Of a stretch of DNA of 64,000 bases, positions 1,916 through 26,263 are shown one piece after another (within the stretch, counting starts at the first letter, position 1; every line of letters begins with the position of its first letter). The translations under genes were made by a program, and so were the position numbers. This DNA is from Bryobacterales bacterium (GTDB lineage: Bacteria; Acidobacteriota; Terriglobia; Bryobacterales; UBA6623), in the NCBI GenBank assembly GCA_028819235.1, contig JAPPMC010000191.1, positions 1-64,000 on the forward strand, written 5' to 3'. Below the pieces are notes generated by a model, which had not been told where the DNA came from, did no database searches, and saw nothing but the letters and a program-made list of their open reading frames with translations.

Positions 1916-4780
1916 TCAGGGCTCATAGCGAATCCACATCGGGCTGGCCCAGGCCATGGCCTTGTTGCGCTGGCTCATGCGGACGTAATACATGTTCCAT
2001 TCTCCGGGCTTAGCCGCCGGATCGGACCATTCCAGGTTGACCTGCACCGCGCGCGGCTCCATCGCCGCGACGATGGCGGGCTTCTCGAGCCCTACCTGCC
2101 GTACAATCTCGACCGAGTCGATCTCGGTTGTGCCTGTGGCCGTGATCTGCAGCCGTGGGATGCCGCTCGACTTGAATTCGTCCCCCATTAGGTGCTCACC
2201 CGACTGGACGAGCAGCGCGATGTTGTCCTGAGCAGCGTAGGAATGCCGACGCTTGAATGCGTCAATGATCGCTTCGCGGGAGTTCTCTTCCGCCAGAACG
2301 ATCGCGTAGCTGATGTGCGTAGAGACGTGGTCGCTACTCGCCTGGAAGCCCAGGCGCCGACCCTTCTGGAATGCCTCCCAAACATAGCCTGCCGGGCGGT
2401 AGCCCTGGATCGTGTCCTCCGGCCCGGTGGCCGCGAATGGACCTCCTGAGAGCTCGTAGCTCTGGCGGTGCCCCTGAAAGATCTCGACCACGGGTTCCAC
2501 CTCTGTATCTCCATCACGCCAATCTGTTCCCATGTTTGAGGCCGAAGTGTGTGACGAGCAGATGCCGCCAAAGTGCCGCAAGTAGGCAAAGAGGTTCTTG
2601 ATGTCCGGCGCGCCCTCCTCAGCGGTCCCATTCATGTTTTCCCTGCCCCGCATGCGCGGCACGGGGCGAATGCCTCGGCGCGGCAGCATCACGTTCCGGT
2701 GGCCGCTGGGGTAGCTCACATTGCGCTCATACGTGTAGGTCGCACTGAAGTGGCCCGCATGGTGAAACATGTCAGAGGCTTTCTGTTGCAGCCACCATTG
2801 GTAATCCTGCCCCACGGCATAGTCATGGTCTCCAGGACCGATCCAGTCCAGTGCGGCGACGTCGAGTCCGTAGCGCCACACATCCTCGAACGGACCGTCC
2901 CAGTCTCGATGCGATGAGAACGCGGAGTGCCGGTGGAACTCGCCCCGCAGGAATTGCAGGGAGAGGCTTCCAGCCCGGATGCGCCTAGCACGGAGGGCTG
3001 CGATCTGCGCCGCCTCGTCCGGGTGCACAGGATCGGCGCCGAGGTCCGGTTGGTTCGCCGAGGTCGGAACGAGCTTGGGCTCAATGGCCGGGGCTCCGAC
3101 CCTCAGGACAGCGCTATGCAGGTCGCTGTCTTGCCGCTCTCTGGCATTCGTCCGCGCGTCACCGGCAATCACCGCCAACAGGCTTCCGTCGGGCAACCCT
3201 GCGAGACCAGGAGACCTGTCCAGCACGTGGTCTGAGGACTGCAGCGGAATCGGCCGTGACCAGCTTCCCCCGGCGTAGTAGGCACCGTAACTGCGCCACA
3301 CCTCCCCGCGGCCCGTCTTGAGCGGATGCCGGCGGTAAAAAATCCAAGGCAGGCCGTTCCCATCGAACGTCAGAACAGGAATGCTGATCTTGTTCCGCTG
3401 GCTGGTCGCGATTCTCGGGTCGTCGTGATAGTAGTCCACGGTCGGCGCAAGTGGCGGAAGCGCGGTCTGGCGCAGCGCCCCATCCCACACCCGCACGAGG
3501 AGGTTCTTGTTGACGTACATCGGCGTAGCTTGCGTGCCAGGCCAGCGGTCGCCGTAGTCCTTACCCCAGCCTTCGTCCGAGTCTTCGAAAGCGACCCAGG
3601 CCCGACCCATCTCGTCCACTGCCACGGAGGCTCGCGCCTCGAACCGGCCAGAGGTCGCAATCGGGATCACTTCCCCAACCGATTCTCCGTCGAACCTTCG
3701 GATCAAGACGTCGTAGTTCCCGCTCTGGTAGGTGTCCCAGGCGATCCAAGCCGATCCGGCGCGGTCGGCCGCGATTGACGGTCGCCAGTCGTTGGCGTCG
3801 CTCTGCGAGACCCGAACCGGTGCTCCGTCCAATGTGCTGGCGTAGATGTCGAATCCGTGCTCACGGTGTGCCTGCCAGGCGATGAAGCCCCCGCTGGCTG
3901 CGACGTTGATGTCGCTGCCAGGGTGCTGTGTGATGCGACGTTCGGGACCGAAGTCTCCGCTGTGCCTCGAATACTCGCGGGCGTAGATGTCCCAGTTCCC
4001 AGACCGCTGCTCCGACCAGACAACCGCGGCGCCGCCAGTCGGGAGGGCCATCACGGCTGGTCTCCAAACGTCACGGCCGCCTGGTGTAACTTCAATTGCT
4101 TCACTCCAGCCACCGGCAATCCGGTGCACCCACTTGATGCGATCTCCGTTTCCGGAGAACTCGAGAGATTCGAACCGACCCGCCAGCGCCGCCTCTTCAT
4201 CGATCAGAGCCCCGGGCTCATACTCCACGTACGCGCAGACCACTGATCCATCCACCAGCGCCGCGCAGCTGGGAAAGTCATCGTCCAGACCGGAGGTGGT
4301 CAGCGGCGTGTCGGATGGGTTCAGCGACGCTTCAACCCGCCCGCCCAAGAACGATGCGAACGAGCCGATCTCCAACTCGTCAAGATGGATCTCAAACCTC
4401 CCCTGCCCGGTCTCGACGGATATCGTGCGCGCATGGCCGACAACTCCTGTGCACTCCCCATCGGGCAGTTTCAGCACGACTTCTGCCGGAAGCACTCTGG
4501 GCGACAGGGCACCCCCGGCCAGCTTGGTCGGGCTGGACTGCGAGTTTGCTTCCCATGAGGCAGTACCGGAAGCCACCCAGCCGTCCGCCTTGCCGTGCCA
4601 GTCGGATTCGGCATCGTCGCCGATTCCTAGGCGTAGGGCGAGGACGGGTGCCGATTGGCAAGCAGACTCGCTGCGGGTAGGAGATTGGGCTTCCGCGCTA
4701 CTTGTCAGCAGCGCTGGAATGCCTACCCAAGAACCTGCCGAAGCCAATGCGACCCCCAGAATCCAGAAACTCGGCCTCAT
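1916..4780 (-). CDS. Exported beta-propeller + PHP-like metallohydrolase (paralogue A)
   Basis: A 954-residue protein with a signal peptide of about 31 residues ending in SSAEA-Q. Residues of roughly 200-480 contain repeats of the type W-V-A-W/F followed by G-x-Y/W-D-V/I, as in TolB/BNR-like propellers. From about residue 612 a PHP-like domain begins: H616-R-H618, D651-H652, E685, H694, H744 and D817-H818 with H822 form the expected His/Asp metal ladder. It is therefore probably a periplasmic or surface metal-dependent phosphoesterase or related hydrolase. Substrate is unknown. The gene at 59090-62116 is a clear paralogue with the same spacing between the HRH and DH motifs. It is convergent with the PfkB gene (15 nt apart). 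A relationship to DUF3604 proteins is possible. ATG at 4780 follows a TAAGAT box by 8 nt. Confidence 0.8.
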   Translation of the reverse strand: MRPSFWILGVALASAGSWVGIPALLTSSAEAQSPTRSESACQSAPVLALRLGIGDDAESDWHGKADGWVASGTASWEANSQSSPTKLAGGALSPRVLPAEVVLKLPDGECTGVVGHARTISVETGQGRFEIHLDELEIGSFASFLGGRVEASLNPSDTPLTTSGLDDDFPSCAALVDGSVVCAYVEYEPGALIDEEAALAGRFESLEFSGNGDRIKWVHRIAGGWSEAIEVTPGGRDVWRPAVMALPTGGAAVVWSEQRSGNWDIYAREYSRHSGDFGPERRITQHPGSDINVAASGGFIAWQAHREHGFDIYASTLDGAPVRVSQSDANDWRPSIAADRAGSAWIAWDTYQSGNYDVLIRRFDGESVGEVIPIATSGRFEARASVAVDEMGRAWVAFEDSDEGWGKDYGDRWPGTQATPMYVNKNLLVRVWDGALRQTALPPLAPTVDYYHDDPRIATSQRNKISIPVLTFDGNGLPWIFYRRHPLKTGRGEVWRSYGAYYAGGSWSRPIPLQSSDHVLDRSPGLAGLPDGSLLAVIAGDARTNARERQDSDLHSAVLRVGAPAIEPKLVPTSANQPDLGADPVHPDEAAQIAALRARRIRAGSLSLQFLRGEFHRHSAFSSHRDWDGPFEDVWRYGLDVAALDWIGPGDHDYAVGQDYQWWLQQKASDMFHHAGHFSATYTYERNVSYPSGHRNVMLPRRGIRPVPRMRGRENMNGTAEEGAPDIKNLFAYLRHFGGICSSHTSASNMGTDWRDGDTEVEPVVEIFQGHRQSYELSGGPFAATGPEDTIQGYRPAGYVWEAFQKGRRLGFQASSDHVSTHISYAIVLAEENSREAIIDAFKRRHSYAAQDNIALLVQSGEHLMGDEFKSSGIPRLQITATGTTEIDSVEIVRQVGLEKPAIVAAMEPRAVQVNLEWSDPAAKPGEWNMYYVRMSQRNKAMAWASPMWIRYEP

Positions 4781-4794: not shown

Positions 4795-5287
4795 CTTTCC
4801 ACGCGCATTTCTTGCTTGACGTAGGAGGACGCCCGGACTGACGAGGTGTGTGTGCACTAGACCTACAGCGTCCAATTGCGGTCGTATACGATCGGTGTGT
4901 TCGCAAGAGTTCGGCTTGTAGTACGCTCTTTTCACCGTGTGGGCCGCTGTAGTCCGGCAGATACCATTGCGAAGTGATGGCCATTCCATGCTTAGCTCCT
5001 GCTGGAGAGCAAGACTGGAATCCATTGGTTTTCAGGCAATCCAAAGAGGCGAGGACTAGATGCGATAGTACTGAGATCCGTTTGAACTCGCCATCACTTT
5101 CCAGTAAATCATATGTATGCTAAATGTACCGGACAAGCATTTGCCAGAGTCCCCTACAGGCAGCGACTGGAGCATCCCCTCAGCCGGAAACTCTATTGGC
5201 AGGGCGGCGCCAGATTCTACCTATATACGTCTCGGCCCCATACCGGGCGCGGCGGCTCGATGCTGGTGGCTTGTCCCAGTGAGGATT
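4795..5287. other. Intergenic region, no recognisable gene
   Basis: About 490 bases between two divergent genes. Short open frames on the minus strand (about 4792-5044) match no family I recognise. A TTGGCA (5196-5201) with a TATATA-like element (5222-5227) could be a promoter for the methyltransferase at 5288, but the 20 bp spacing is poor. Base composition is more AT-rich around 5040-5130 than in the neighbouring genes. Confidence 0.4.
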
Positions 5288-5986
5288 ATGGAACAGATGA
5301 GCAGGGAGTTCGCGAGACGTCTGGCCCAGCAGGCCATCGAGCGAGGGAGTCCGCTGGAGTGGTTCGAGGAGCTGTATGAAGCTGCCTTGAAGGAGGGAAT
5401 CGACCGGATTCCGTGGGCGGATTCGCGGCCGAATCCCAACTTGGTCGAGTGGCTTGACCGGAACGGGACGACGGGATGCGGCAGGCGGGCCCTTGTGGTC
5501 GGCTGTGGTCTCGGGGATGATGCGGAGGAACTCGCTCGAAGGGACTTCGCCGTTTCTGCCTTTGATGTTTCGAAGTCGGCCATTGCAATAGTGGCTCGCC
5601 GATTTCCCAATACGTCCGTCAAGTACCTGGTCGGTGACCTGTTCTCGCCGCCTTCGGCGTGGCAGGCCGCGTTTGCCTTCGTGCTCGAGGCTTATACCCT
5701 GCAGGTAATCCCACCAGCGATGCGGGGGAACGCGGCCCGATGCCTTGCGTCGTTCGTCGCCCCAGGGGGCCAGTTGCTGTTGATCGCGAGAGCCCGCGAC
5801 GAATGGGAGAGGCTGGGCACGATCCCTTGGCCGGTATCGCGCCCTGAGCTCTCGATCCTGCTGGAGTGCGGTCTCGACGAAGCGCTCTTCGAGGACTACG
5901 TCGACGGCGAGACGCCGCCCGTTCGCAGGTTCCGAGCCCTGTACCGATCGAGGCAATGCCGGGAATCCGCCGCATCGGGTGCGTGA
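5288..5986 (+). CDS. Class I SAM-dependent methyltransferase (TPMT-like)
   Basis: A 232-residue cytoplasmic methyltransferase. The SAM-binding glycine motif is ALVVGCGLGDDAEELA (about residues 66-81), followed by the acidic end of strand 2 in SAFDVS, the acidic position VGDLF, and a post-motif strand ending in PGGQLLLIAR. The long N-terminal helix region and the way the sequence enters motif I resemble thiopurine/small-thiol methyltransferases; the substrate is not evident. ATG at 5288 is chosen because GAGG sits just upstream at 5281-5284; the frame stays open back to 5117, but that extension is not protein-like, and ATG 5297 is an alternative. Another methyltransferase starts 100 nt downstream. 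Confidence 0.75.
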   Translation: MEQMSREFARRLAQQAIERGSPLEWFEELYEAALKEGIDRIPWADSRPNPNLVEWLDRNGTTGCGRRALVVGCGLGDDAEELARRDFAVSAFDVSKSAIAIVARRFPNTSVKYLVGDLFSPPSAWQAAFAFVLEAYTLQVIPPAMRGNAARCLASFVAPGGQLLLIARARDEWERLGTIPWPVSRPELSILLECGLDEALFEDYVDGETPPVRRFRALYRSRQCRESAASGA

Positions 5987-6086: not shown

Positions 6087-6809
6087 ATGAGGGAAGGCTG
6101 GACCGAACACGACAGCAAGACCTTCCTCCGGGATGCCGATTGCTTCGTGCCGGAGCGGGATCTCCTGTTCGAGAGCGTTTGCCAACTCGTCCCAGATTGC
6201 ATCCAATCCGACCTCGTCGTCGAACTCTGCTGCGGTGACGGGTCGCTCAGCGAGGTCATCCTTGACCAGATTGAGGGAGTCCGAGTACTCGCGATGGATG
6301 GGTCGGAGGCAATGCTCCAAGCCTGCTGCCGCCGGCCCGAGCGCTTCGGGGATCGTATCGAGATTCGCCGGTTTGACCTCGCTGGCCGGGACTGGCGGCG
6401 CTTTGCAGAGAGCCCGCGAGCCATCGTTTCGACCTTCGCGATTCACCATCTGCCGGACAGCGCCAAACAGGATCTATACCGCGACCTAGCCGCCCAACTG
6501 GCACCCGGCGGAGTCCTAGCCATTGCCGATCTGATCCGGCCCGCGAGCGCTGTTTCGACCGGACTGGCCGCCTGGCAATGGGACGAAGCGGTTAAGGAGC
6601 GGTCCATCCGGACCCGCGGAGACCTTTCGGCTTTCAGGACCTTCCAGGCGGAACGGTGGAATCACCACGCAGTCGATGACCCCGACCCGATCGACCAGCC
6701 GGCCCTTCTGACCGATCAGCTCCGGTGGCTTTCGGATGCGGGTCTTGAGGGCGTGGACGTGCATTGGTCCAAGGGAGGGATGAGCCTCTTCAGCGGAATC
6801 AGGATGTAG
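6087..6809 (+). CDS. Class I SAM-dependent methyltransferase
   Basis: A 240-residue protein with motif I VVELCCGDGSLSEVI (about residues 43-57), motif II VLAMDGSEAML, and the later APGGVLAIADLI strand-turn motif. The AIHHL segment after motif III is typical of UbiE/Methyltransf_25-type small-molecule methyltransferases. It shares little visible sequence with the methyltransferase just upstream, so the pair is not a recent duplication. The 100-nt gap leaves room for its own promoter; TACAGT at 6060-6065 is a possible -10 box. Substrate unknown. Confidence 0.75.
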   Translation: MREGWTEHDSKTFLRDADCFVPERDLLFESVCQLVPDCIQSDLVVELCCGDGSLSEVILDQIEGVRVLAMDGSEAMLQACCRRPERFGDRIEIRRFDLAGRDWRRFAESPRAIVSTFAIHHLPDSAKQDLYRDLAAQLAPGGVLAIADLIRPASAVSTGLAAWQWDEAVKERSIRTRGDLSAFRTFQAERWNHHAVDDPDPIDQPALLTDQLRWLSDAGLEGVDVHWSKGGMSLFSGIRM

Positions 6810-6943: not shown

Positions 6944-7138
6944 CTAGGAGTGCCTCTTATAGGATGCTAGATTCAGAGGCTGATATTCACCGAACGTCTC
7001 GCGAAGTCTACAATGAGCGACGATCTTACTGAAGACGGTTGTTCCGTTTCCTCTTGGTCCATATAGGATTACATCTGCTTCAGGCGCACAGCCCACCGCA
7101 ATCACATCCAACAGTCGGGTAAGCAGCGACATCTCCAC
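6944..7138 (-). pseudogene. N-terminal remnant of an AAA/P-loop ATPase
   Basis: A 64-residue frame beginning behind a good ribosome-binding site (GAGGTGGAG before the ATG at 7138). It reads RLLDVIAVGCAPEADVILYG followed by PRGNGTT, which is the start of a P-loop ATPase up to Walker A. The invariant Lys of Walker A (GNGKT) is Thr here, and all homology ends about 10 residues later. It is best read as the 5' stub of a deleted ATPase gene. No Walker B or sensor region is found nearby. Confidence 0.6.
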
Positions 7139-7701
7139 CTCTCAACCCGCCAAGTATGGCGCTATCAGCCCATGGCCGGGAACAAACGGATTCCGCGCGT
7201 GGTGTGCGACACGGGGATGCCGCTTGGGGTCTCCCACTCCGTCCTCACCATGGGATGATTCCTACCTCCTCCACTGTCGGCCCACGCCAGTCTGCTACCT
7301 TCCGGTTGGTTGGGATCGGTGGCAGAAGTGCGGATCGGTCTCGGTCAAACCAAGCTGCTCGTCCGTCGCGAGCACGTCTCCGTCACTTGGCCTGACAGTG
7401 CGCTTCTCCACACCTGCATCGAGGCTCCGGCTGCGTGTCGGCAATTGCCCCCGTCGCGTGATCAGGCGCAGGCAGGCATTCCGGAAGATGCCACTGAGAT
7501 GGTCTTCGCGTGAAGGACTGCAACCAACGGGTCGACCGGTGCGCACTAGGCCGGTCGCCACAGGATGATTTCATGTGCCCAACCTGAACGGGAACGGCAG
7601 GGTGTCGACCGATGCCGGCGCGCCGTGTGAGATGGGAGCGCTTCCGGAGGCCCACCGAGGCCGATCGGAGTGCGCGGGTAAGGGCCGCGACCGGTGAGTT
7701 C
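7139..7701. other. Intergenic region, no recognisable gene
   Basis: About 560 bases between the ATPase stub and the 3' end of the large helicase gene. Several short frames are open on both strands, as expected from high GC, but none has a signature I can recognise. It may hold further debris of the deleted ATPase gene. Confidence 0.35.
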
Positions 7702-10700
7702 TTAGGGCATCCGCAACTCGTCGCGGATTTGATCCAATTGTCCGGTCGCTACGAGTTCCCGGGATTGCCGCACGAACGCTTTGCGCGTCTCCCCGCTCAT
7801 CCGCTTGATCCCAAGCATACGGGCCGCTTCTCGCGCGCAGTCGGCGGGACTGATGCCGATGTTGCGCTCGACGGCCTCCAGAATTGCCGAGCGCATTTCG
7901 GTCGGCGGCAGCATTGCCGCCCTACGGAGCCATTGGGATTTGGCCAAGCTCCGGTCCCGTGGCGGCGGGAACCCGCTGCGATCACGCCGGTCCAAGAAGA
8001 CCCGATCCATATTTCCTGAATAGTCCACAAGCCCAGCCTTCACGGCGTGGTCCACGGCTGCCACCACCGCTCGCTGGATCCGACTGCCCGTCCGCCTGTA
8101 CCCCCACAGTTGAGACAGCCGGCGGACGACTTCTTCGATGTGCACGGGACCCTCCGTCTTGACGATCCGCGTAACGCACTCCACCAGCGTGCTCTCATCA
8201 GACTCTGGCAATGGTCCATATGCAGACGCGGCGATCTCGAAGGTTGCCTCGACATAAGGAGCGCCCATGCGCTCCGGCGGGTCCTCCGCCTGTACGCGGA
8301 CCACTCGAGCGCGGCTCTCCGTTGCCTGTGGCTCGGCTCCCGTTCGGCCCATACCCCTGGCCCGCTCCACGGCCTCCAGCAGCCGGGCCAATTCCCGGTC
8401 GCGGTCATAGAACCAGTCCGTGCTCCATATCCGGTGGAACGTCCAACCCTTCTGTTCGAGGACGGTTTGGCGCAGCCGGTCCCTCTCTCTCGCCCAACTG
8501 GAAGAGTGGTAGCGGGCCCCGTCGCACTCTACCGCCAGGAGAAATCGCCCCTCATCGTCAGGGTCGTGGACGGCAAGGTCTATGCGGAAGCCCGCAGACC
8601 CGACTTGGCCGGAGACTCGATAACCATGGCTCTGCAGGGCTGCCGCCACAGCCTCTTCAAATGGGCTGTCTGCGGCCGCACCCGATAGTACCGGGACATC
8701 TAGTTCGCCGGTCTCTGCGTACTTCAAGAATCGCTTCAGGACTCGCGGGCCTGCGTGCTTTGTAGTGTCCAAGCGGATGTCGGAGTGCCGGATCGAAGCG
8801 AAGACCGTGCACCGCTTCTTTGCACGCGTGAAGAGCACGTTCAGGCGCCGCTCTCCCCCCTCGTTCGACACAGGTCCGAAGCTCTGCGACATGTAGCCGG
8901 CCTTGTCCCTGCCGTAGCAGATCGAGATGAAGATAACGTCACGCTCGTCGCCTTGGACGTTCTCAAGGTTCTTTACGAAGAAGGCGTCATCCCTGCTCTC
9001 CTTGCAGAAGGCCTCTAGTTCTGGATGCTGCGCGCGCATGATTTCCAGCTTGTCCGCGATTGTGTTGCGCTGCGCGATCGACAGGGCGACCACGCCAAGC
9101 GTGTCGTCCGGGTGGCGGCGGGCATGCTTGAGCACTTGTTCTGCGACGGCCTGAGCTTCGACCGGATTGTTGCGCTTGCGGCCGCGCTCGTAGAAACCCT
9201 CCACGTGGACGAAACCGAGGCCGGTCGACTTCGGTGCCCACTCCGGGCTAGGCGGGCAGATCAGCCCGTGGCCGTAGAACTCGTGGTTCGACACCTCGAT
9301 GAGCGACGGGTGCCTTGAGCGGTAGTGCCAGCGCAGCATCCCGCCGGCCATGCTTCGCGACTCGCACAGCGACAGGATGCTCTCCATGTCACCGACCTGC
9401 GCTGCTTGAATGTCCTGCAGGTCTTCCAGTGCGTCTGGATCGACCGAATCCCCGACTTCGCGGTCGAAGAAGGACGTGGGCGGCATTTGCTTCTGGTCGC
9501 CGACGACGACCACCTGCCTGCATCTCAGAATGGCTCCCATGGCATCGGCCGGGCGCACTTGGCTGGCCTCGTCAATCAGCAGCAGGTCAAACGTCAGGCC
9601 ACCGGGCGACAGATATTGGGCCACTGACAGCGGGCTCATCAGAAAGACCGGCTTGATCCTGATCACCGCCTCTCCTGCCGCGTTCAGCAGCTTCCGGATC
9701 GGCATATGGCGCATCTTCTTGGCCAGTTCTCCCCGGACAATGCCTACCTGACCGGCCGAGCCGAGTGGGATGGACTCAAAGTGCTTGATCGCAACCTCTT
9801 GGGCCGCCAAGGCTTGCAGGCTCAGGTCGAGGTCCTTGAAGAGCTCTACCTTGCGGCTCCGATCCGCACCGTCGATCATGGCGAGTTTGGGGGTGTCGGA
9901 ACGCATCCGGTTCCAAACGGCCTCTGCCCGGACTAACGCAAGGGCGCTTGTACCGTCTTCCGGCCCCAAGCGGCCGTCGCCGATCCTGTCGCGAATCTGC
10001 CCCAGGCCGAGCGTGGAGAGTTGGCGGCCAGCTGCGCTCAGCCTGTGCCAGTCCTCGATCGAACCTGGGTCCTTCATCCAAGCTGTGAGTCGCTCGACCA
10101 AAGCGTCGATGGGCACCGCACCAATGTCGTCTTCGGAGAAAGCCACCCGAACGTCCAGATCGACCAGATCCGAGACCGTGGCCCAGCAATCGGCCCATTG
10201 CTCTAACGCTTGGCGGAGGACTTGCCTAGTTCGGGCAAGCGACTCGGCGTCGCTCGACCGGGAAACCTGTTGCCGCACCTGATCCACTGAGTCCAGCTCT
10301 GCTGCCTGCGAGGCGATCCATTGGACCGCAGGCCAGAGTATGCTGGTGTCCGATTCCTCGCGCGTCCAAGCCCGGCCTAGAGCTTCTCGCCCCAACGCAT
10401 CGTTCGTTCGTATGGACCGTACGGCTCGTCGGTACTGGATCATCCGGTCAAGCTGGGCCAGTTGGTCAGTCAGGCCTCGGGGGACAGAGCCCCGCTGGAC
10501 CGCTCGTAGACGGCCGAGAGAGCGGCGGTAGGCGCCGCTGAACCAGCGAAACAGGGATCGGCCGCGTGACGCGATCTCGAATCGATCGTCGTCCCAATCA
10601 CGGTCAAGAGCGATCTCGACGACCTCCGCGATGAGCTCGCCTCGCAGCCGCCTTGCCTCCGCGATGCTACTGACAAGTCGGACGACGCTCGGAAGCTCCT

Positions 10701-12495
10701 CAAGCACAGCGGGGCGCTCCAGCAGCCGCACCACTCGTGCGGGCCTGGCAGAGAGGGCATCCAGATGCCCGCAAACGATCTCTGACGCCGCCGGCGTCTC
10801 GGCCACCTTGACGGCCGCCGCCGCTGCCCCCGCCCGCAGTGCCGCTCGAAGGCCCTCCAACAGCTCCAAGCCCCGGCTCAGTTCCCCGCTGAGGGCCCTC
10901 CTGTCGGGTAAGCTCAGGCGCTTCCGGGCTCCGCGCCAAATGTGCGTCCTCTCGAGACCATGCTCGGTCGCCATCCGCGACAGCGCCGCTACCGCCTCTA
11001 CGCGCTTGTCGTACTCGGCGCGGCTCCAGGCTTCGGCCCCGGGTATCTGCCAGCCGGGCCTTGCGCACCCCCGTTCGCTCAGCTCCGAAATCCGGCCGAT
11101 CACGAGATAGGGAGTCTCACCGTTCTTGGCGTCGACCCTGTGAAGCAGCTCTGAGAGTTCGTTGAGCTCATCGCGAACCTCTCGCACTCGGCGATACTCG
11201 CTCTCGCCGACGCGCGCGGGCGCGCCCAGCGCTAGCGTCCTTCGCAGCTCCGCGTACACCTCCTTTCGGTTGGCCTTGTGAGAGTGCAGCTCCAGACACA
11301 GCGGTCCGAGGCCGCACCTCTCGATTCGGGTGTGAACGACATCTAGCGCTGCGCGCTTCTCGGCTACGAACAGCACGCGCTTCCCTTCCCCTGCCGCGAC
11401 CGCGATGATGTTCGCGATGGTCTGCGACTTGCCGGTCCCGGGCGGCCCTTGGACGACGAGGTTCCGGCCCTCCCTTGCCGCGGCGATAACCTGCGTCTGC
11501 GAAGCGTCAGCGTCCAGAATGTGCCCCAAGTCCCTCGGGTCGGCGAACCGCTCGTCGAGCCGTTCGTCTGGTGCGAAGATGCTGGCGCTCCCGGAAAAGC
11601 CCTCGACCAGCAGCCGCTCGACCAGTTCGTTGTTCGCCGTTCCGAACGCCTCTTCCCCCGCCGAGAGGTCCCTCCACATCAGGAACTTCGCGAACGAGAA
11701 GAAGCTGAGTTCGATGGTGTTGGGCCGCACTCTCCAGCGGGCCTTTGGCGCAACGGCCGACTGGACGCGCACAAAGTACTCGGACGGTAGCCATCGTTCC
11801 CCGTCCGGAAAGTCCGGCAGGGTCAGGCCGAAGTCAGACTCGAGCAGCGCTCGCAAGGACAGATTGGGCTCAAGGTCCTGGTCCCTGTAGACCAGGCGGA
11901 ACTTCCCTCTGGCCCTCTCTCGTTCAAGGTCGACGGGCAACAGGATTAGCGGCGCGAACCGTTCCACTTCCGACGACCCGCTCTCGTACCAGCGCAGGAA
12001 GCCAAGGGCCAGGAAAAGCACGCTGATGCCCTGCTCCTCCTCGAGGGAGCGGGCGTCCCGATAGAGCACCAACAGCTTGCGCTGAAGCCGGGCAGCGCTG
12101 AGCCGTGTGTGCAGCAGGCGGTCGACGTGGCGATCCGCAAGGGGGCCCGCCTGCCGTCCGTCCTGCTCAAGGGGGAGGAACAGGCTGTCGTCGTCCTCTT
12201 CGTCCTCCAAGTCTGGAGAGTTGTCCCCCCTGTAAGGCTCAAGGGTCATGCTTCGGTTCTCCAGGTAGAGAATCCTGTAGACCTCGTCTGCCAGTTCGTC
12301 CTCGATCGTTAGCTGTTTCGCCCTTTGCTTGCCGATCGGGGCGTTGATCAGCTTGTTGCGTTTCCCGACATCGAGCAGCTTCTGCCGAAGCCTGTCGACC
12401 GCTGTAGCGAGCCCCCGCGCCAGATGGGAATCACGCTCGGGCTGTGGGGATTCAGAGGCCGCCACGGAACTCATCGTGCCACCGGATTGCCGCAT
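7702..12495 (-). CDS. DUF4011 / SF1 helicase / Vsr-like nuclease / DUF3320 protein (probable defence gene)
   Basis: A 1597-residue multidomain protein. The N-terminal 300 residues are DUF4011-like (KLLDVGKRNKLINAP near residue 40). Next comes a UPF1-like superfamily 1 helicase: Walker A QGPPGTGKSQ (about 349-358), Walker B LLIDEAS with GDQKQMPPTSFF, and the late motifs NVQGDERDVIFIS and LNVLFTRAKKR. Residues of about 1276-1375 form a Vsr/MTES_1575-type PD-(D/E)xK nuclease (RIDLAVHD...AVECDG...HRIWS). A DUF3320-like segment lies near 1430-1490. Proteins of this architecture are single-gene antiphage candidates (the DUF4011-helicase-Vsr type), so DNA surveillance and cleavage is the likely role. 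All key residues appear present. The gene stands alone, with about 200 nt before the next gene. Confidence 0.85.
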   Translation of the reverse strand: MRQSGGTMSSVAASESPQPERDSHLARGLATAVDRLRQKLLDVGKRNKLINAPIGKQRAKQLTIEDELADEVYRILYLENRSMTLEPYRGDNSPDLEDEEDDDSLFLPLEQDGRQAGPLADRHVDRLLHTRLSAARLQRKLLVLYRDARSLEEEQGISVLFLALGFLRWYESGSSEVERFAPLILLPVDLERERARGKFRLVYRDQDLEPNLSLRALLESDFGLTLPDFPDGERWLPSEYFVRVQSAVAPKARWRVRPNTIELSFFSFAKFLMWRDLSAGEEAFGTANNELVERLLVEGFSGSASIFAPDERLDERFADPRDLGHILDADASQTQVIAAAREGRNLVVQGPPGTGKSQTIANIIAVAAGEGKRVLFVAEKRAALDVVHTRIERCGLGPLCLELHSHKANRKEVYAELRRTLALGAPARVGESEYRRVREVRDELNELSELLHRVDAKNGETPYLVIGRISELSERGCARPGWQIPGAEAWSRAEYDKRVEAVAALSRMATEHGLERTHIWRGARKRLSLPDRRALSGELSRGLELLEGLRAALRAGAAAAAVKVAETPAASEIVCGHLDALSARPARVVRLLERPAVLEELPSVVRLVSSIAEARRLRGELIAEVVEIALDRDWDDDRFEIASRGRSLFRWFSGAYRRSLGRLRAVQRGSVPRGLTDQLAQLDRMIQYRRAVRSIRTNDALGREALGRAWTREESDTSILWPAVQWIASQAAELDSVDQVRQQVSRSSDAESLARTRQVLRQALEQWADCWATVSDLVDLDVRVAFSEDDIGAVPIDALVERLTAWMKDPGSIEDWHRLSAAGRQLSTLGLGQIRDRIGDGRLGPEDGTSALALVRAEAVWNRMRSDTPKLAMIDGADRSRKVELFKDLDLSLQALAAQEVAIKHFESIPLGSAGQVGIVRGELAKKMRHMPIRKLLNAAGEAVIRIKPVFLMSPLSVAQYLSPGGLTFDLLLIDEASQVRPADAMGAILRCRQVVVVGDQKQMPPTSFFDREVGDSVDPDALEDLQDIQAAQVGDMESILSLCESRSMAGGMLRWHYRSRHPSLIEVSNHEFYGHGLICPPSPEWAPKSTGLGFVHVEGFYERGRKRNNPVEAQAVAEQVLKHARRHPDDTLGVVALSIAQRNTIADKLEIMRAQHPELEAFCKESRDDAFFVKNLENVQGDERDVIFISICYGRDKAGYMSQSFGPVSNEGGERRLNVLFTRAKKRCTVFASIRHSDIRLDTTKHAGPRVLKRFLKYAETGELDVPVLSGAAADSPFEEAVAAALQSHGYRVSGQVGSAGFRIDLAVHDPDDEGRFLLAVECDGARYHSSSWARERDRLRQTVLEQKGWTFHRIWSTDWFYDRDRELARLLEAVERARGMGRTGAEPQATESRARVVRVQAEDPPERMGAPYVEATFEIAASAYGPLPESDESTLVECVTRIVKTEGPVHIEEVVRRLSQLWGYRRTGSRIQRAVVAAVDHAVKAGLVDYSGNMDRVFLDRRDRSGFPPPRDRSLAKSQWLRRAAMLPPTEMRSAILEAVERNIGISPADCAREAARMLGIKRMSGETRKAFVRQSRELVATGQLDQIRDELRMP

Positions 12496-12698: not shown

Positions 12699-13673
12699 CT
12701 AACCCTCCGCGCCGCACGAGCCATTGCCGTCCTCAGTGCCACCGCCCGTCGGCGTACCGACGAATCCCCAGCCGAATCGCCCCTTGATGCAAAGGTTGCC
12801 CGCGGTCACTTCTTGGTCCAGCGGGGACGTCACTCTGACGATCTGGTTGTCCTGCGATCGCACGGTGAGCGTGCAGCCGACCCCGCAGTAGGGGCAGATA
12901 GTGTCGGCCTCGCGCTGGCGGTCCTCATCCCACTGGCCCGTCTGACGCAGGTCGTGCTCACTCTTAAAGATCAGTGCCCCTGTCGGGCAGACCGCGATGC
13001 AATTGCCGCAGTAGACGCAGGCCGATTCCGGAAGGTCGACGTCAAACTCAGTGCTGATGTGGGCGTCAAAGCCACGACCTGCCACGGCGATGGCAAACGT
13101 GTTCTGTGCGTCGGTCCCGCACGCCTCCACGCACTTGTAGCAGAGCACGCACTTGGCGTAGTCGCGCACGTAGAGCTCGTTGTCAACCTTCACCGGCTGC
13201 TCGACAGTGGCAGGTTCCGAACCGCCGTCGCCGTACCGCGAAGGCTCTGCACCATAGCGCTCCATGTAGTCGGCGAGTTCCGGGGAGATGGACAGATCGC
13301 TCCCGGAAGCCAGAAATTCCAAGACCATGCGCCGGCTGAGCCGAACTCGCTCGGAGTCAGTGCGGATCGACATGCCCTGCTCGGCCTTGCGCGAGCAGGC
13401 CGGCACGAGCGCTCTCGATCCTTCCAGTTCCACCACGCATGCCCGGCACGCGTTGACGGGTGTGAGCGTCTCCAGATAGCAGACGGTTGGGGTGTCAATG
13501 CCGAGCCTGCGGCACGCGTCCAGCAGGGTAGCTCCCTCTTCGACGAATATGGTCTTGCCGTCCACCTCGATCTCGACCCGGCGGCGCTCAGTTTCAGGGG
13601 GGGCTGTCGGCACTGGCCCGCGTGGTACAGGGACCGTCAGGTCCGGCGCCGCATTTGGATCGCGGTGGTTCAT
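12699..13673 (-). CDS. Formate dehydrogenase iron-sulphur subunit (displaced N-terminal part of FdhA)
   Basis: A 324-residue electron-transfer protein made of domains that normally form the N-terminus of NAD-linked formate dehydrogenase alpha. In order: a [2Fe-2S] ferredoxin domain (about 25-110, with ACRACVVELEG), a linker, two ferredoxin-type [4Fe-4S] motifs (CVLCYKCVEACG and CVYCGNCIAVCPTG), and the cofactor-proximal cluster motif CPYCGVGC with CIKGRFG at the C-terminus. The linker around VLEFLASGSDLSISPELADY has no Cys, so the usual His-Cys3 cluster is absent. The protein ends just after CIKGRFGWGF with a Gly-rich tail. ATG 13673 overlaps the stop of the preceding gene (ATGA), implying coupled translation; an upstream in-frame start would lie deep in that gene. 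Confidence 0.85.
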   Translation of the reverse strand: MNHRDPNAAPDLTVPVPRGPVPTAPPETERRRVEIEVDGKTIFVEEGATLLDACRRLGIDTPTVCYLETLTPVNACRACVVELEGSRALVPACSRKAEQGMSIRTDSERVRLSRRMVLEFLASGSDLSISPELADYMERYGAEPSRYGDGGSEPATVEQPVKVDNELYVRDYAKCVLCYKCVEACGTDAQNTFAIAVAGRGFDAHISTEFDVDLPESACVYCGNCIAVCPTGALIFKSEHDLRQTGQWDEDRQREADTICPYCGVGCTLTVRSQDNQIVRVTSPLDQEVTAGNLCIKGRFGWGFVGTPTGGGTEDGNGSCGAEG

Positions 13674-15517
13674 CTTGGACTCCCTCCCCAGATCGGAAAC
13701 CTCAGCAGCGCAGAGTCGACGGCGCTCGCGGCCGTGTGTCCGAGCCCGCAGATTGATGCATCGCGCATCACCTGCGAGATCTCCGCGAGCAGCGTGCTGT
13801 GCTGCTCCGACCCAAGCCGGACATCCCCCGACTGCAAGCGCTGCAGCAGCTCGTGCTGGCGTACCGTTCCCACGCGGCACGGCACGCACTGTCCACAGCT
13901 CTCGTGCCGGAAGAACTCCGCGATTCGCACGAGCATTGCTCCGAGATCTACTGTCGTGTCGAATGGCATCACGACGGCCGACCCCACCGTCGCACCGATT
14001 TCCCGCATGGCCTCAAACGTGAACGGCGTGTCGAGTTCGCCCGGGTGCAACAGGGCACCGGCCGCTCCCCCGACGAGAACGGCCTGGACTTGTCCGGATC
14101 CCGCGACTCCGCCGGCCATCTCGATCAGTTCCCTTACAGTGACGCCGAATTCGGCCTCGTAGACTCCCGGGCTCGCGACGTGGCCTGAGAGACAGAACAG
14201 TTTCGGTCCGCTGGATACGTCCGTGCCCATCGCTGCATAGGCGGCGCCTCCTTCGAGCAGGATGCCCGGGATGTTGGCTAGCGTCTCCACATTGTTGACC
14301 AGCGTCGGGCGCCGGAAGAGCCCCGATTGGGTTGGGTATGGCGGTTTGTTGCGTGGCTCCCCGCGGTATCCCTCGATCGAGTTGAACAGAGCGGTTTCTT
14401 CTCCGCAGATGTAAGCTCCCGCTCCTCTCCGGACTTCGATCGGGCAGGCGGGAGCCAGCAATCCTTCCCTGTCACAGTCTTCGATCGCCCCTGCAATGCG
14501 GTCGGTGGACTCTGGGTACTCGCCGCGGATGTACACGTAGGCCCGCTCACACCCGGTGGCGAATGACGCAATAGCCAAGGCCTCGACCAGAGCGTACGGG
14601 TCGCCCTCCATCAGGACCCGGTCCTTGAAGGTGCCCGGCTCGGACTCGTCTGCGTTGCAGACCGCGTACTTGGGGCCTTTGGCGGCCAGCACCGCCCGCC
14701 ACTTGCGACCGGTCGGGAAGGCCGCCCCACCCCGGCCAACGAGGTTTGAAGCCTCGACTTGCTGCACGACCCACTCAGCGCCGTTTCGGACAGCGAGGTC
14801 TAAGGCTGTGAATCCACCATCCCGGAGATAGCCTTGGAGACCCTCTCCAGACGGCTCGCCAACACGGTGCAGGAGGCGGAGCCCTCCCGTTCCTGCCTGA
14901 GGAACTGATGCGCGGACCTCAGCCCCCGGCGCCGCTGCCCTGCCCTCCCGGCGGCAGAACTGTTGGATCGCTCTAGGGGTCGCGGGCGCCGACACTGCGT
15001 GCCACGGCTGCCGCCCCGCTCCGCTGATCAGCGCGGCAGGCGCTCGCTCGCAGAGCCCCAAGCACGGGCTGCGCGTCCAGATAACGCCGTTCGCGGATCT
15101 CTCACCACCCTCGGGGATTGGACTTGAGGCCAGGCCGTCGCTCAGGCGGTCAAACCCCTTGGCGATACAGGCTATGTCGTCGCAGACCCGCACGACCACC
15201 GGCGGGCGCGGGGACAGCGAGAACATGTCGTAGAAGGTTGCCACCCCGTAGGCCTCCGCAGGGGGCACGCCCAGCCTGCGGCAGCAATAGTTCAGGGCAC
15301 CCCGGCTGATCCAGCCGCAGCGGTCGCTGATAGCGTGCAGGACCGGCAGCAGAAGGTGGCGCTTGCCCGCCCCCCGGTGGCCCGCCTGGGACGTGCGAAG
15401 GTCGCTTGCCCGGAGGCGGACCCCGCCCGTCCAGTTCGAAGGCGGCTCGCCGAGCAGCGAGTCGACTGCCTCCTTCTCCGTATCTGTCGGGGCGTCGGGG
15501 GTGAAATGGAGGTCCAC
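13670..15517 (-). CDS. NuoE-NuoF fusion, diaphorase subunit of NAD-dependent formate dehydrogenase
   Basis: A 615-residue fusion. The N-terminal part (about 45-210) is a thioredoxin-like [2Fe-2S] NuoE/FdsG domain with ligand pairs in VCDDIACIA and PCLGLCERAP. The rest is NuoF/FdsB: GRGGAAFPTGRKW and ADESEPGTFKDR (FMN/NADH sites), GAGAYICGEETAL, and the [4Fe-4S] ligands in ESCGQCVPCR plus ICGLGH. It would pass electrons from the iron-sulphur subunit to NAD+. In most systems these are two genes (fdsG and fdsB), so the fusion is notable but precedented. It follows the catalytic gene by 47 nt and overlaps the next gene by 4 nt. Confidence 0.9.
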   Translation of the reverse strand: MDLHFTPDAPTDTEKEAVDSLLGEPPSNWTGGVRLRASDLRTSQAGHRGAGKRHLLLPVLHAISDRCGWISRGALNYCCRRLGVPPAEAYGVATFYDMFSLSPRPPVVVRVCDDIACIAKGFDRLSDGLASSPIPEGGERSANGVIWTRSPCLGLCERAPAALISGAGRQPWHAVSAPATPRAIQQFCRREGRAAAPGAEVRASVPQAGTGGLRLLHRVGEPSGEGLQGYLRDGGFTALDLAVRNGAEWVVQQVEASNLVGRGGAAFPTGRKWRAVLAAKGPKYAVCNADESEPGTFKDRVLMEGDPYALVEALAIASFATGCERAYVYIRGEYPESTDRIAGAIEDCDREGLLAPACPIEVRRGAGAYICGEETALFNSIEGYRGEPRNKPPYPTQSGLFRRPTLVNNVETLANIPGILLEGGAAYAAMGTDVSSGPKLFCLSGHVASPGVYEAEFGVTVRELIEMAGGVAGSGQVQAVLVGGAAGALLHPGELDTPFTFEAMREIGATVGSAVVMPFDTTVDLGAMLVRIAEFFRHESCGQCVPCRVGTVRQHELLQRLQSGDVRLGSEQHSTLLAEISQVMRDASICGLGHTAASAVDSALLRFPIWGGSPR

Positions 15518-15564: not shown

Positions 15565-17484
15565 CTAGTCCCCGGCCGGAGCGGCGCCCATTGTATCAAT
15601 CCGTATTGCCGTAGCCTTGAACTCGGAGACGCCCGACTTCGGGTCGATAGCCTCGATCGTCAGCTCATTGGTGTTGATCTCGTCCGGAGCGTGCATCGTC
15701 ATGAAGGCGAGGCCCGGCCTGAGGCCGGGGTCAAAGCGAACCGGGGCCACGATCGATCCGCGCCGGGACGAGACGCGCACGCGCTCAAACTCCCTGATAC
15801 CGAGATCGAGGCCGTCTTCGGGCGAGATGTCCACAGTCTCCTGGCTGTGCATGGGCGATTTTAGGTGCTCGCTCTGAACGCCGGTGTTGTAGGCGTCCAG
15901 CCGCCGCCCTGTAGTCAGGCGGATCGGGTAGGTCTCGTCCAGCTGGTCCACCGGCGCCACGGCTTCCACGGCCGAGAAGGGTGCCCGCGGCCCGATCCTC
16001 GGCTTGGCCCACAGCCGGCTGTGCAGGTACAGCTCGCCGGGATGCGACTCGTCGTAGCAAGGCCAGCGGATGCCCCCAAGCTCCTCAAGTCGCTTGTAGC
16101 TCATGCCCGCGTGCATCGGGCTCAGCGTGCGCAGCTCGTTCCAAAGAGCCTCGGCGTCTGGTTCTCCCCAGTCGTGGCCGAGACGCTTGGCCAGATCGAA
16201 CAGGATCGACATGTCGTCCCGCGCTCCCGATGGAGGTTCCAGTACCCGGCGCACGCGCTGGACCTTCCGCTCGCTGCTGGTCACGGTCCCCTCAGACTCG
16301 GCCCAGCCGGCTCCAGCCGGCAACACAACGTCCGCCAGATCAGCGGTCTGCGTAAGGAAGAGGTCCTGAACGATCAAGAAGTCCAGCCCTCCCATCAGCT
16401 TCAGGACGTGTTCCGTGTCCGGCTCCGACGCCACGGGGTTTTCCCCGATCACGTAGAGCGTGGTGAGCTCACCAGTGCCCATTGCCTCGAACATTCCGCT
16501 GATGTGACGGCCCGGACGGGACGGGATCTTGCAATTCCAGACGGCCTCGAACTTTGCGCGGCACTCGTCGTTGGTGACGTGCTGGAACCCGGTGAGGCGA
16601 TCCGGCAACGCTCCCATGTCCCCCCCGCCTTGCACGTTGTTCTGGCCGCGCAGCGGGCAGAGGCCCGATCCAAAACGGCCCACGTGGCCGGTGAGGAGGG
16701 CTAGGTTGATCAGCGACAGGACGTTGTCGGCTCCGCGGTGATGCTCGGTGATGCCCAGGGTCCAGCACAGCTGTGCCCTCTTGGCCTTTGCGTATGTGTG
16801 GGCCAAGTCCCGGATGGCCTCCTGCGGCACGCCTGTGACGCGCTCAGCGTGGGCGAGCGTGAACGGCTCGACCGCATTCCGATACTCTTCGAACCCGCTC
16901 GTTGCATGTTCGATGAACGCTCGATTCTCGAGCCCGGCCGCAAGGATTTCGCGCCCGACGGCGTGGGCCAAAGTGATGTCCGACCCGACATCGAGCCCAA
17001 GCCAGCGGTCTGCCCACTGTGCGGAAGTAGTGCGACGCGGATCGACGACGAACAGCGAAGCGCCGTTGTGAACGCCTTTCAGCACGTGGTGGAAGTAGAT
17101 CGGGTGCGTCTCGCGGGCGTTCGACCCCCACAGGATGATCAGGTCGGCCTCTTCTGCCTCCCCGTAGGAGCTCGTGCCTCCCCCCGCTCCGAATACCGTC
17201 GCCAGACCGACGACGCTGGGAGCGTGTCAAGTACGGTTGCAGCTGTCGATGTTGTTGCTGCCGATTACGCTGCGGGCGAACTTCTGAACCGCGAAGTTGA
17301 GCTCGTTGGTGGTCTTCGAGCAGCTGAACATACCGAAGGCCTGCTCGGGCCTGCTGCGCATCGCCCGGCGGAACGCCTCCGCGGTGGTGTCGAGGGCCTC
17401 GTCCCAGCTGGCCGGCTGCAGGGCGCCATTGTGGCGGACAAGCGGCTGTGTCAGGCGTGGGAATCTTCGCTTGTGCTGCGGCAT
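15565..17484 (-). CDS. fdhA: Selenocysteine-containing formate dehydrogenase, catalytic molybdopterin subunit
   Basis: A 639-residue selenoprotein read through an in-frame TGA at 17229-17227 (residue 86). Frames on both sides of the TGA are the same, and the joined sequence NNIDSCNRT-Sec-HAPSVVGL matches the active-site segment of formate dehydrogenases, where Sec or Cys binds Mo/W. Further signatures are WGSNARETHPI, VVDPRR, QNNVQGGGDMGALP and a C-terminal molydop-binding domain (RLTTGRRLDAYNTG). It oxidises formate to CO2. Start ATG 17484 (MPQHKRR) begins where the canonical protein has already passed its Fe4S4 domain; that domain is encoded by 12699-13673. A conventional caller would split this gene, starting the second part near 17085. 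It is divergent from the sulfatase (78 nt apart) and has TATCAT 8 nt before the ATG. No selenium-insertion genes lie in the window. Confidence 0.9.
17197..17215 (-). promoter_or_regulatory. Bacterial SECIS element of fdhA
   Basis: Immediately after the in-frame UGA the mRNA can form a hairpin: stem CGUCG (17215-17211) with CGACG (17201-17197) and the 9-base loop UCGGUCUGG. The loop contains GGUCUG, the same sequence as in the Escherichia coli fdhF loop that SelB recognises. The first loop G lies 19 nt after the UGA, within the usual bacterial distance. Confidence 0.75.
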
Positions 17485-24850: not shown

Positions 24851-26263
24851 ATGCCAACAGACAATTTCGGCGTCGCCGGGCTTGGCGTGATGGGCCGCAA
24901 TGTTGCCCTCAACATCGAACGCAACGGCTTTCCCGTCGTGGCCTACAACCGCGGGGACGAGAACGCCGCCAAGATGCGTGCCGAGTCCCACGGCAAGAAC
25001 GTAACGGTAACGCAGTCGATCCCTGACTTCGTTTCCCTTCTCACACCGCCGCGCCGCGTCTTGCTCATGGTCACGGCCGGCCGGGGCACCGATCTGGTCA
25101 TCGATGCGCTGCTAGCACACCTCGAGGCGGGCGATGTCTTGATCGACGGGGGAAACTCGCACTTCTCCGACACGGAGCGCAGGGCCGAGCGACTGCAGGC
25201 TCGGGGTCTGCACTTCGTCGGCTGCGGCATCTCCGGAGGTGAAGAAGGCGCCCTATGGGGTCCGTCCATCATGCCCGGCGGGAACCGAGACGCCTACCTG
25301 CGCATCGCACCAGTCCTGGAGAAGATCGCTGCCAAGACCGATGACGGCAGCCCATGCGTTACCTACTGTGGCCGTGGCGCTGCCGGGCACTACGTGAAGA
25401 TGGTGCACAACGGCATCGAGTACGGAATCATGCAGCTCATTTGCGAGGTGTATGACATCCTGCGCAGAGGCCAAGGCTGGTCGTCCGAAGAAATCCAGGA
25501 ACTCTTCCGGGCCTGGACTGGGTCGGGACAGGTTGGCGGATACCTCGTCGACATCACCGCTCAGTGTCTGGCGAAGCGGGATGATGTCTCCGGGACAGCG
25601 CTTGTGGAGAAGATCCTTGACACTGCAGGCCAAAAGGGGACCGGGAAGTGGACCGCGCAGACAGCGCTGGATCTTGGCATACCGATCCCCACCCTTTCCC
25701 AAGCGGTGAACGCCCGAATTCTCTCTGGCTTGAAGGACGCACGAGTGGAGGCTTCCGCCAAGCTGACGGGACCGTCTGGCGGTGCGGCGGCCGACCGTGC
25801 GCACCTGCGTCGGACCCTGCACGACGCCCTGCATCTCGGCATGGTCGCATGCTATGCGCAGGGCCTGCACCTGATCCAGGCCGCGTCGGCGGAATTTGGG
25901 TTTGGCACGGACCTCGCCGAAGTCGCGAGGATCTGGAAAGAGGGCTGCATCATCCGCTCCAAGCTGCTAGACCCAATCCGTCAGGTCTACAGCGAGCATT
26001 CAGGATTGGAGAACATGCTGCTGAATCCGGTATTCACCACGGCCGCGAATCGGAACCTTCCGGCCTTGCGCGAAGTCGTGGGCCTGGCCAACGACAGCGG
26101 CGTTCCTACCACCTGCTTTGGAGCTACCTTGGCATACGTTGACAGCTACCGCTCGGAGTTCCTGCCGGCCAACCTGCTACAAGCGTTGCGCGACAATTTC
26201 GGCGCGCATACCTACCGTCGCCTGGACATGGAGGGCGTCTTCCACACCCAGTGGAACCGCTAG
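24851..26263 (+). CDS. gnd: 6-phosphogluconate dehydrogenase (decarboxylating)
   Basis: A 470-residue cytoplasmic enzyme that converts 6-phosphogluconate to ribulose-5-phosphate and CO2 with NAD(P)+ in the pentose phosphate pathway. The Rossmann motif is GLGVMGRNVALNIERNGF with AYNR after it. The substrate/catalytic segment is CGISGGEEGALWGPSIMPGG, followed by KMVHNGIEYGIMQLI with the catalytic Lys. The length is that of the long (dimeric) class. ATG 24851 is preceded by AAGG at about 10 nt; the frame is open further upstream but is not protein-like. The HAD gene follows 20 nt downstream. Confidence 0.95.
   Translation: MPTDNFGVAGLGVMGRNVALNIERNGFPVVAYNRGDENAAKMRAESHGKNVTVTQSIPDFVSLLTPPRRVLLMVTAGRGTDLVIDALLAHLEAGDVLIDGGNSHFSDTERRAERLQARGLHFVGCGISGGEEGALWGPSIMPGGNRDAYLRIAPVLEKIAAKTDDGSPCVTYCGRGAAGHYVKMVHNGIEYGIMQLICEVYDILRRGQGWSSEEIQELFRAWTGSGQVGGYLVDITAQCLAKRDDVSGTALVEKILDTAGQKGTGKWTAQTALDLGIPIPTLSQAVNARILSGLKDARVEASAKLTGPSGGAAADRAHLRRTLHDALHLGMVACYAQGLHLIQAASAEFGFGTDLAEVARIWKEGCIIRSKLLDPIRQVYSEHSGLENMLLNPVFTTAANRNLPALREVVGLANDSGVPTTCFGATLAYVDSYRSEFLPANLLQALRDNFGAHTYRRLDMEGVFHTQWNR

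Follow-up and report, generated by a model that had tools for sequence, protein, structure and literature searches.

A stand-alone PDC-S37-type helicase-nuclease gene, a candidate defence gene, at a variable insertion site of a Bryobacterales genome

The analysed window, a 64,000-nucleotide stretch from a Bryobacterales bacterium (GenBank assembly GCA_028819235.1, contig JAPPMC010000191.1), carries an intact gene for a 1597-residue DUF4011-helicase-Vsr nuclease that is a further member of the already catalogued candidate family PDC-S37 and is ordinary as a kind. The gene stands alone, with no conserved partner gene next to it. With a probability of roughly 0.7, it is an intact, self-sufficient and horizontally moving defence gene of this family that encodes a stand-alone, restriction-like helicase-nuclease; we infer the defence role from the family, the mobility of the gene and its company on plasmids, and the mechanism from domain logic.

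The reading frame is uninterrupted over all 1597 residues, as the preliminary description had it (Table 1), and the domain search recovered DUF4011, AAA_11, AAA_12, MTES_1575 and DUF3320, all five above the Pfam gathering cut-offs, the MTES_1575 nuclease with 126.5 bits against a cut-off of 38.2 and DUF3320 with 46.9 bits against 25. HEPN and transglutaminase domains gave no Pfam match in the protein at E 0.01. The solved chains closest to the helicase stretches are those of SMUBP-2 and UPF1, with DNA2 matching weakly, and the protein is predicted to be a UPF1-like SF1 helicase with its motifs intact. The helicase motifs and PD-(D/E)xK residues that had been reported are borne out by aligning the 74 proteins of more than 1300 aa, the window protein among them, that remained of 81 sequences (the loci of the best 80 of 241 relatives plus the window) once seven with no called gene or with 1300 aa or fewer had been dropped. 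Walker A, the DEAS motif, R1059 and Q1181 are kept in all 74 proteins and R1224 in 73, and the nuclease acids D1306, E1323 and D1325 are kept in 72, 70 and 73, respectively. Within the nuclease motif, alanine replaces C1324 in 20 and H1330 in 22 of the 74 homologues while the acids remain, which might reflect a change of activity within the family.

Table 1. Positions of the helicase-nuclease gene, its domains and the surrounding features in the window.
Feature	Position	Strand	Residues	Basis or remark
Right border of insertion: gene for 954-aa protein	1916..4780	-		weak DUF3604 match; matched in 11/11 genus genomes
Two class I methyltransferase genes	5117-5986 and 6087-6809	+		Pfam
Orphan AAA_16 ATPase remnant	7031..7222	-		truncated ATPase of the preliminary description (ORF 6944-7138)
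PDC-S37-type DUF4011-helicase-Vsr nuclease gene	7702..12495	-	1597 aa	ATG start
Second winged helix	7711..7905	-	1531-1595	AlphaFold model only
First winged helix	7987..8202	-	1432-1503; DUF3320 match 1432-1474	Pfam E 2.6e-12 and AlphaFold
Vsr-like PD-(D/E)xK nuclease, MTES_1575	8371..8661	-	1279-1375; D1306, E1323, D1325	Pfam E 4.2e-37
Helicase RecA-like part 2, AAA_12	8794..9366	-	1044-1234	Pfam E 6.5e-14
Walker B DEAS	9562..9573	-	975-978	after long insertion (about residues 434-890)
Helicase RecA-like part 1, AAA_11	11197..11508	-	330-433	Pfam E 2.4e-19
Walker A GPPGTGKS	11425-11448	-	350-357	motif in AAA_11 part
DUF4011 domain	11842..12381	-	39-218	Pfam E 1.4e-36; AlphaFold core largely confident
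Left border of insertion: formate dehydrogenase iron-sulfur gene	12699..13889	-		matched in 11/11 genus genomes

An AlphaFold model of residues 1245-1597, built with 36 sequences (mean pLDDT 85), contains a PD-(D/E)xK core followed by two winged helices. The modelled nuclease resembles the catalytic domain of the Vsr-like homing endonuclease I-Bth0305I (3r3p; TMt 0.71-0.78, E 0.06-0.08) and NGO0050 (3hrl; TMt 0.71, E 0.07), and the winged helices resemble AlkX/YcaQ (9zd6, E 1.3e-4) and SelB; among the PDB matches of this C-terminal model, E falls below 0.001 for two AlkX chains only. The N-terminal 345 residues were modelled with a mean pLDDT of 78 and have no convincing match among solved structures. 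The predicted DUF4011 fold has no significant PDB match (Foldseek best E 0.23, VIA-align best Z 3.9), and its matches to helicases are weak and within noise (SETX Z 3.5, Upf1 Z 2.8, Aquarius Z 2.3), so that on the model no known fold can be named for it, a missing match being no proof of a new fold.

The best PADLOC model for the protein is PDC-S37 (residues 29-1593 on profile positions 6-1543 of 1550; 1682.8 bits), the runner-up being Hhe with 705.5 bits, which agrees with its earlier designation as a single-gene DUF4011-helicase-Vsr defence candidate; membership was judged by match extent and bits. The match runs nearly end to end through the nuclease and the C-terminal region, with no difference in extent. 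PDC-S37 is likewise the best PADLOC model of all five homologues that were scanned (L017, L030, L034, L058 and L063), scoring 1474 bits for L017 and 1749 bits for L030. PDC entries are termed uncharacterized in the available part of a paper on PDC-S15 and PDC-S66 (PMC12482510), and the literature search found no paper naming PDC-S37, hence no anti-phage test of it.

Two named groups lie close to this family. Residues 22-1565 of the window protein match positions 349-1903 of the 1903-position profile of the anti-phage protein ProA (NCBIfam NF058533) with 1359.8 bits, but this is below the curated cut-off of 1500, and the protein lacks the first 348 profile positions, which are covered by L034 (2123 bits) and L063 (2328 bits). 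The latter two, of about 2000-2200 aa, are ProA by NCBIfam, whereas L017 and L030 (1500-1600 aa) stay under the ProA cut-off like the window protein; the source publication of the name ProA was not found in the literature search. The protein shares DUF4011, an SF1 helicase and a Vsr-type nuclease with Hhe (DUF4011-helicase-Vsr; NCBIfam NF042953), but its 958.4 bits are far under the NCBIfam cut-off of 2000; L058 is nearer to Hhe, yet also below that cut-off. Hhe was reportedly tested in E. coli by Gao et al. in 2020. In the available text of one paper, DefenseFinder detected Gao_Hhe in Proteobacteria only (PMC9090908).

An older description fits the architecture as well. The MTES_1575 prototype of a 2013 survey combines an SF-I helicase and a Vsr REase with two wHTH domains, the wHTH overlapping DUF3320, and such helicase-Vsr-two-wHTH proteins were proposed there to target invading DNA with no modification genes involved (PMC3710099). 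The window protein shares the helicase, the MTES_1575 nuclease and the two winged helices with these proteins but differs from the system described there in having no HEPN or transglutaminase match. DUF3320 had been noted earlier as an added domain; the domain is present, but it is not an addition, because the PDC-S37 profile match runs through it and helicase-Vsr-two-wHTH proteins were already described in 2013 (PMC3710099).

The 7.2-Mb genome contains one copy of the gene (the window lies on its contig C106), and within the genus a homologue is found in 7 of 10 mates and is absent in three. Homologues occupy two insertion sites in the genus, each with empty counterparts. At site A, that of the window, the left neighbour of the gene is a formate dehydrogenase operon, and the site is empty in 6 of the 10 mates (G001, G003, G005, G006, G009 and G010), where the aligned border ends lie 196-239 bp apart. 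The nearest relative, G002, has the gene at site A with its start and end on two contigs, each adjoining one border; 0.65 kb separates the end of the gene from the right border, a stretch with neither the ATPase remnant nor the methyltransferases. Site B lies between genes for a 1617-aa protein and a PSCyt-type protein. These flank the homologue in G003, the PSCyt orthologue adjoins the homologues of G001 and G005, and in G006 the two halves of the homologue each adjoin one border gene, the occupied site being split over two contigs. In G009 and G010, the empty counterparts of site B, its borders are only 2.0 kb apart, and G007 and G004 keep the PSCyt-side and the 1617-aa-side neighbour, respectively.

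The gap between positions 4780 and 12699 is itself a variable insertion site, with different genes in four lineages: besides the window, G004 carries a ZIP transporter gene there, G008 a 3-keto-disaccharide-hydrolase-like gene, and G007 genes for an AAA_14-DUF4143 ATPase, a flotillin-like protein and a Schlafen-AlbA_2 protein. The 954-aa protein at the right border belongs to a large group of paralogues: at E ≤ 1e-40 every one of the 11 genus genomes has 17 to 22 matches to it, counting the protein itself. The two methyltransferase genes were considered as conserved modification partners and rejected, since neither has a match at E 1e-4 in the homologue loci of the best 80 of 241 relatives and none lies between the gene and the right border in G002.

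The operon on the left has features of its own. Because its catalytic gene (about 15565-17484, minus strand) has an in-frame TGA (17227-17229) at the apparent active-site position (SCNRTUHAPSVVGL), the formate dehydrogenase catalytic protein is very likely a selenoprotein; a tRNA-Sec match above cut-off (73.3 bits) is located on contig C294 of the same genome. The catalytic gene starts near profile position 50, and profile positions 1-48, the alpha subunit's N-terminal Fe4S4 domain, are encoded at the end of the separate downstream gene that forms the left border, the sequences suggesting that the alpha subunit is apparently split over two genes. Elsewhere in the window, a 99-base tRNA-Glu called by ARAGORN (24900-24998, minus strand) is opposite a long ORF, has no Rfam match at gathering score and is probably spurious.

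The family, counted broadly at E ≤ 1e-50, occurs in 25 of 150 genomes, the window's own included. A quick tree was made from 53 of the 74 aligned proteins, filtered at 85% identity; three fragmentary sequences were set aside and one was put back. In this tree the gammaproteobacterial Arenicellales homologue L027 nests within an Acidobacteriota group (SH-aLRT 99), the window protein groups with L014 of G007, and L002 and L003, of the same genus, fall outside the gammaproteobacterial-Acidobacteriota mixture. Transfer of the gene between lineages is likely, bearing in mind that bins can hold stray contigs. The GC content of the gene (0.641, against 0.633 for the window) and its codon use are window-typical, and it therefore did not arrive recently from a genome whose composition differs. 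Comparison with G002 over 723 codons gave dN and dS of 0.065 and 0.317 (NG86) or 0.060 and 0.350 (YN00), a ratio of about 0.2, from which it follows that the gene is kept by purifying selection.

Relatives were also found at E ≤ 1e-50 in 335 of 72,556 plasmid records, of which 205 are typed conjugative and 240 are from Klebsiella, so that the sample is lopsided; nine of the 335 cover at least 80% of the query. Phage records gave one match in 50,697, and none was obtained from the viral contigs searched.

No cluster of flanking genes occurs in more than 13 of the 81 loci (best 80 of 241 relatives plus the window), and the one found in 13 occurs in Roseomonas-type alphaproteobacteria only, antisense ORFs being among its members. 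In the Bryobacterales chromosomes the gene is solitary among metabolic genes. Most chromosomal neighbours are metabolic genes; AbiEi, Fic, PIN, resolvase and transposase genes occur in small number, and at L007 an Mrr-type endonuclease gene lies directly upstream of the homologue. The genes nearest to 22 chromosomal homologues (22 of 27 chosen loci, the number that a size limit allowed, proteobacteria included) encode 145 proteins matching 27 PADLOC models, and the 121 genes of 11 control stretches match 24, a rough comparison in which no enrichment was found. Control stretches were placed arbitrarily in genomes of genus and family mates, several of them on contigs listed by an earlier search, and a twelfth (L156) was dropped for carrying another homologue; gene calling followed a simple GC3 rule, and genes longer than 1100 aa were left out.

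Plasmid neighbourhoods were viewed at the six loci, among 12 of the 335 records, whose match bore an annotated DUF3320 protein; these six were picked before their neighbours had been seen. The six proteins (1566-1994 aa) keep every catalytic residue checked, two of them aligning over part of the query. Clear defence-type genes lie within 8 kb at four of the six loci: a DUF262 pair on a Vibrio plasmid, genes for a DUF4297 anti-phage-associated protein and DUF87/HerA on a Paraburkholderia plasmid, SIR2 on a Hymenobacter plasmid and a type I-E cas operon on a Salinibacter plasmid. The other two loci have weaker candidates, namely RecD-like helicase, WYL and PD-(D/E)XK genes (Azospirillum) and a multiubiquitin/ThiF locus with helicase and exonuclease genes (Sinorhizobium). 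Sixty neighbour proteins at the six loci match 122 PADLOC models, a rough figure in which many models represent the same protein. The preliminary description had set occurrence in defence islands against occurrence mainly in housekeeping contexts; the mostly metabolic chromosomal neighbours, with PADLOC hits not above controls, speak for the latter, but the plasmid relatives are among defence genes.

That description had also remarked on a truncated ATPase gene next to the 3′ end and suggested that a partner may have been lost. The remnant is real: it is located 0.5 kb beyond the 3′ end of the gene, matches residues 5-69 of an AAA_16 ATPase of 389 aa with 57% identity, has an in-frame stop and carries a threonine where the Walker-A lysine would be. 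Its position would fit a two-gene system with a decayed ATPase partner, but the remnant has relatives in 2 of 61 genomes only (three more copies in the window's genome, two in G002), and these paralogues stand alone among neighbours that look ordinary by eye and include what we take to be a FabH-like gene. A weak match of the remnant to IetA (E 0.03) was likewise noted, and the neighbours of the paralogues, viewed by eye, gave no sign of an ietAS pair. In the homologue loci of the best 80 of 241 relatives, some of which end at contig ends, the remnant found no counterpart (best E 0.25), and an intact paralogue used as query had no match at E ≤ 1e-6; 76 of these 80 loci have a called gene, and beyond its 3′ end the sequence continues for at least 1 kb in 63 and at least 2 kb in 59 of them. 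The comparison of neighbourhoods for a conserved ATPase partner accordingly yielded none. Furthermore, the G002 gene occupies the same site with no remnant beside it, and purifying selection acts on the helicase gene. For the window locus a decayed partner is refuted, with hardly any probability left to it, and the remnant is an unrelated leftover of a dispersed orphan family.

A different account would make the protein a resident helicase-nuclease of DNA repair or genome maintenance, with a DNA2-like logic, that serves host DNA metabolism. The likeness of the helicase stretches to SMUBP-2, UPF1 and weakly DNA2, host-like codon use, the solitary position among metabolic genes in Bryobacterales and the sharing of site B by several genus mates are consistent with this, and a DUF4011 gene was core in every P. 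aeruginosa isolate in the available text of one study (PMC10250203), on account of which some family members may have a resident role. For the window gene such a role is unlikely, given its absence in three genus mates, the 125 of 150 genomes that are unmatched at E ≤ 1e-50, two insertion sites with empty counterparts, a phylum-mixed tree and plasmid carriage beside defence genes. It is also conceivable that the main targets of the protein are not phages but plasmids or other mobile DNA, with conjugation or competing plasmids being restricted, as its frequency on plasmids, in a Klebsiella-dominated sample, and its rarity in phage records might suggest. Plasmids carry many anti-phage systems too, however, and the neighbours described above include anti-phage genes; such a specialization is highly improbable.

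If the gene is the stand-alone defence gene proposed here, the winged helices, perhaps together with DUF4011, would load the protein on foreign DNA, the helicase would translocate and open the duplex or follow a replication intermediate, and the C-terminal nuclease would nick or cut the DNA. Self would be told from non-self by DNA structure or replication state and not by methylation, since no modification gene is conserved in linkage; this is the least certain step. A tentative extension, which we consider possible but doubtful, takes PDC-S37 as the minimal core, needing no partner, of the whole Hhe/ProA/MTES_1575 group: a single polypeptide that would restrict DNA independently of methylation by recognizing DNA structure or replication state. 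DUF4011 would in that case be the stalk/1B part of the UPF1-like helicase and not a sensor in its own right, at which its weak, noise-level matches to SETX, Upf1 and Aquarius may hint.

With the false lead of a lost ATPase partner removed, the locus is a clean example of a very large defence candidate encoded by a single gene, present at two sites in the genus and missing from these sites in relatives. The findings also set PDC-S37 next to ProA and Hhe, of which it is the shorter relative, and make its protein convenient for learning how modification-independent helicase-nuclease systems spare host DNA.
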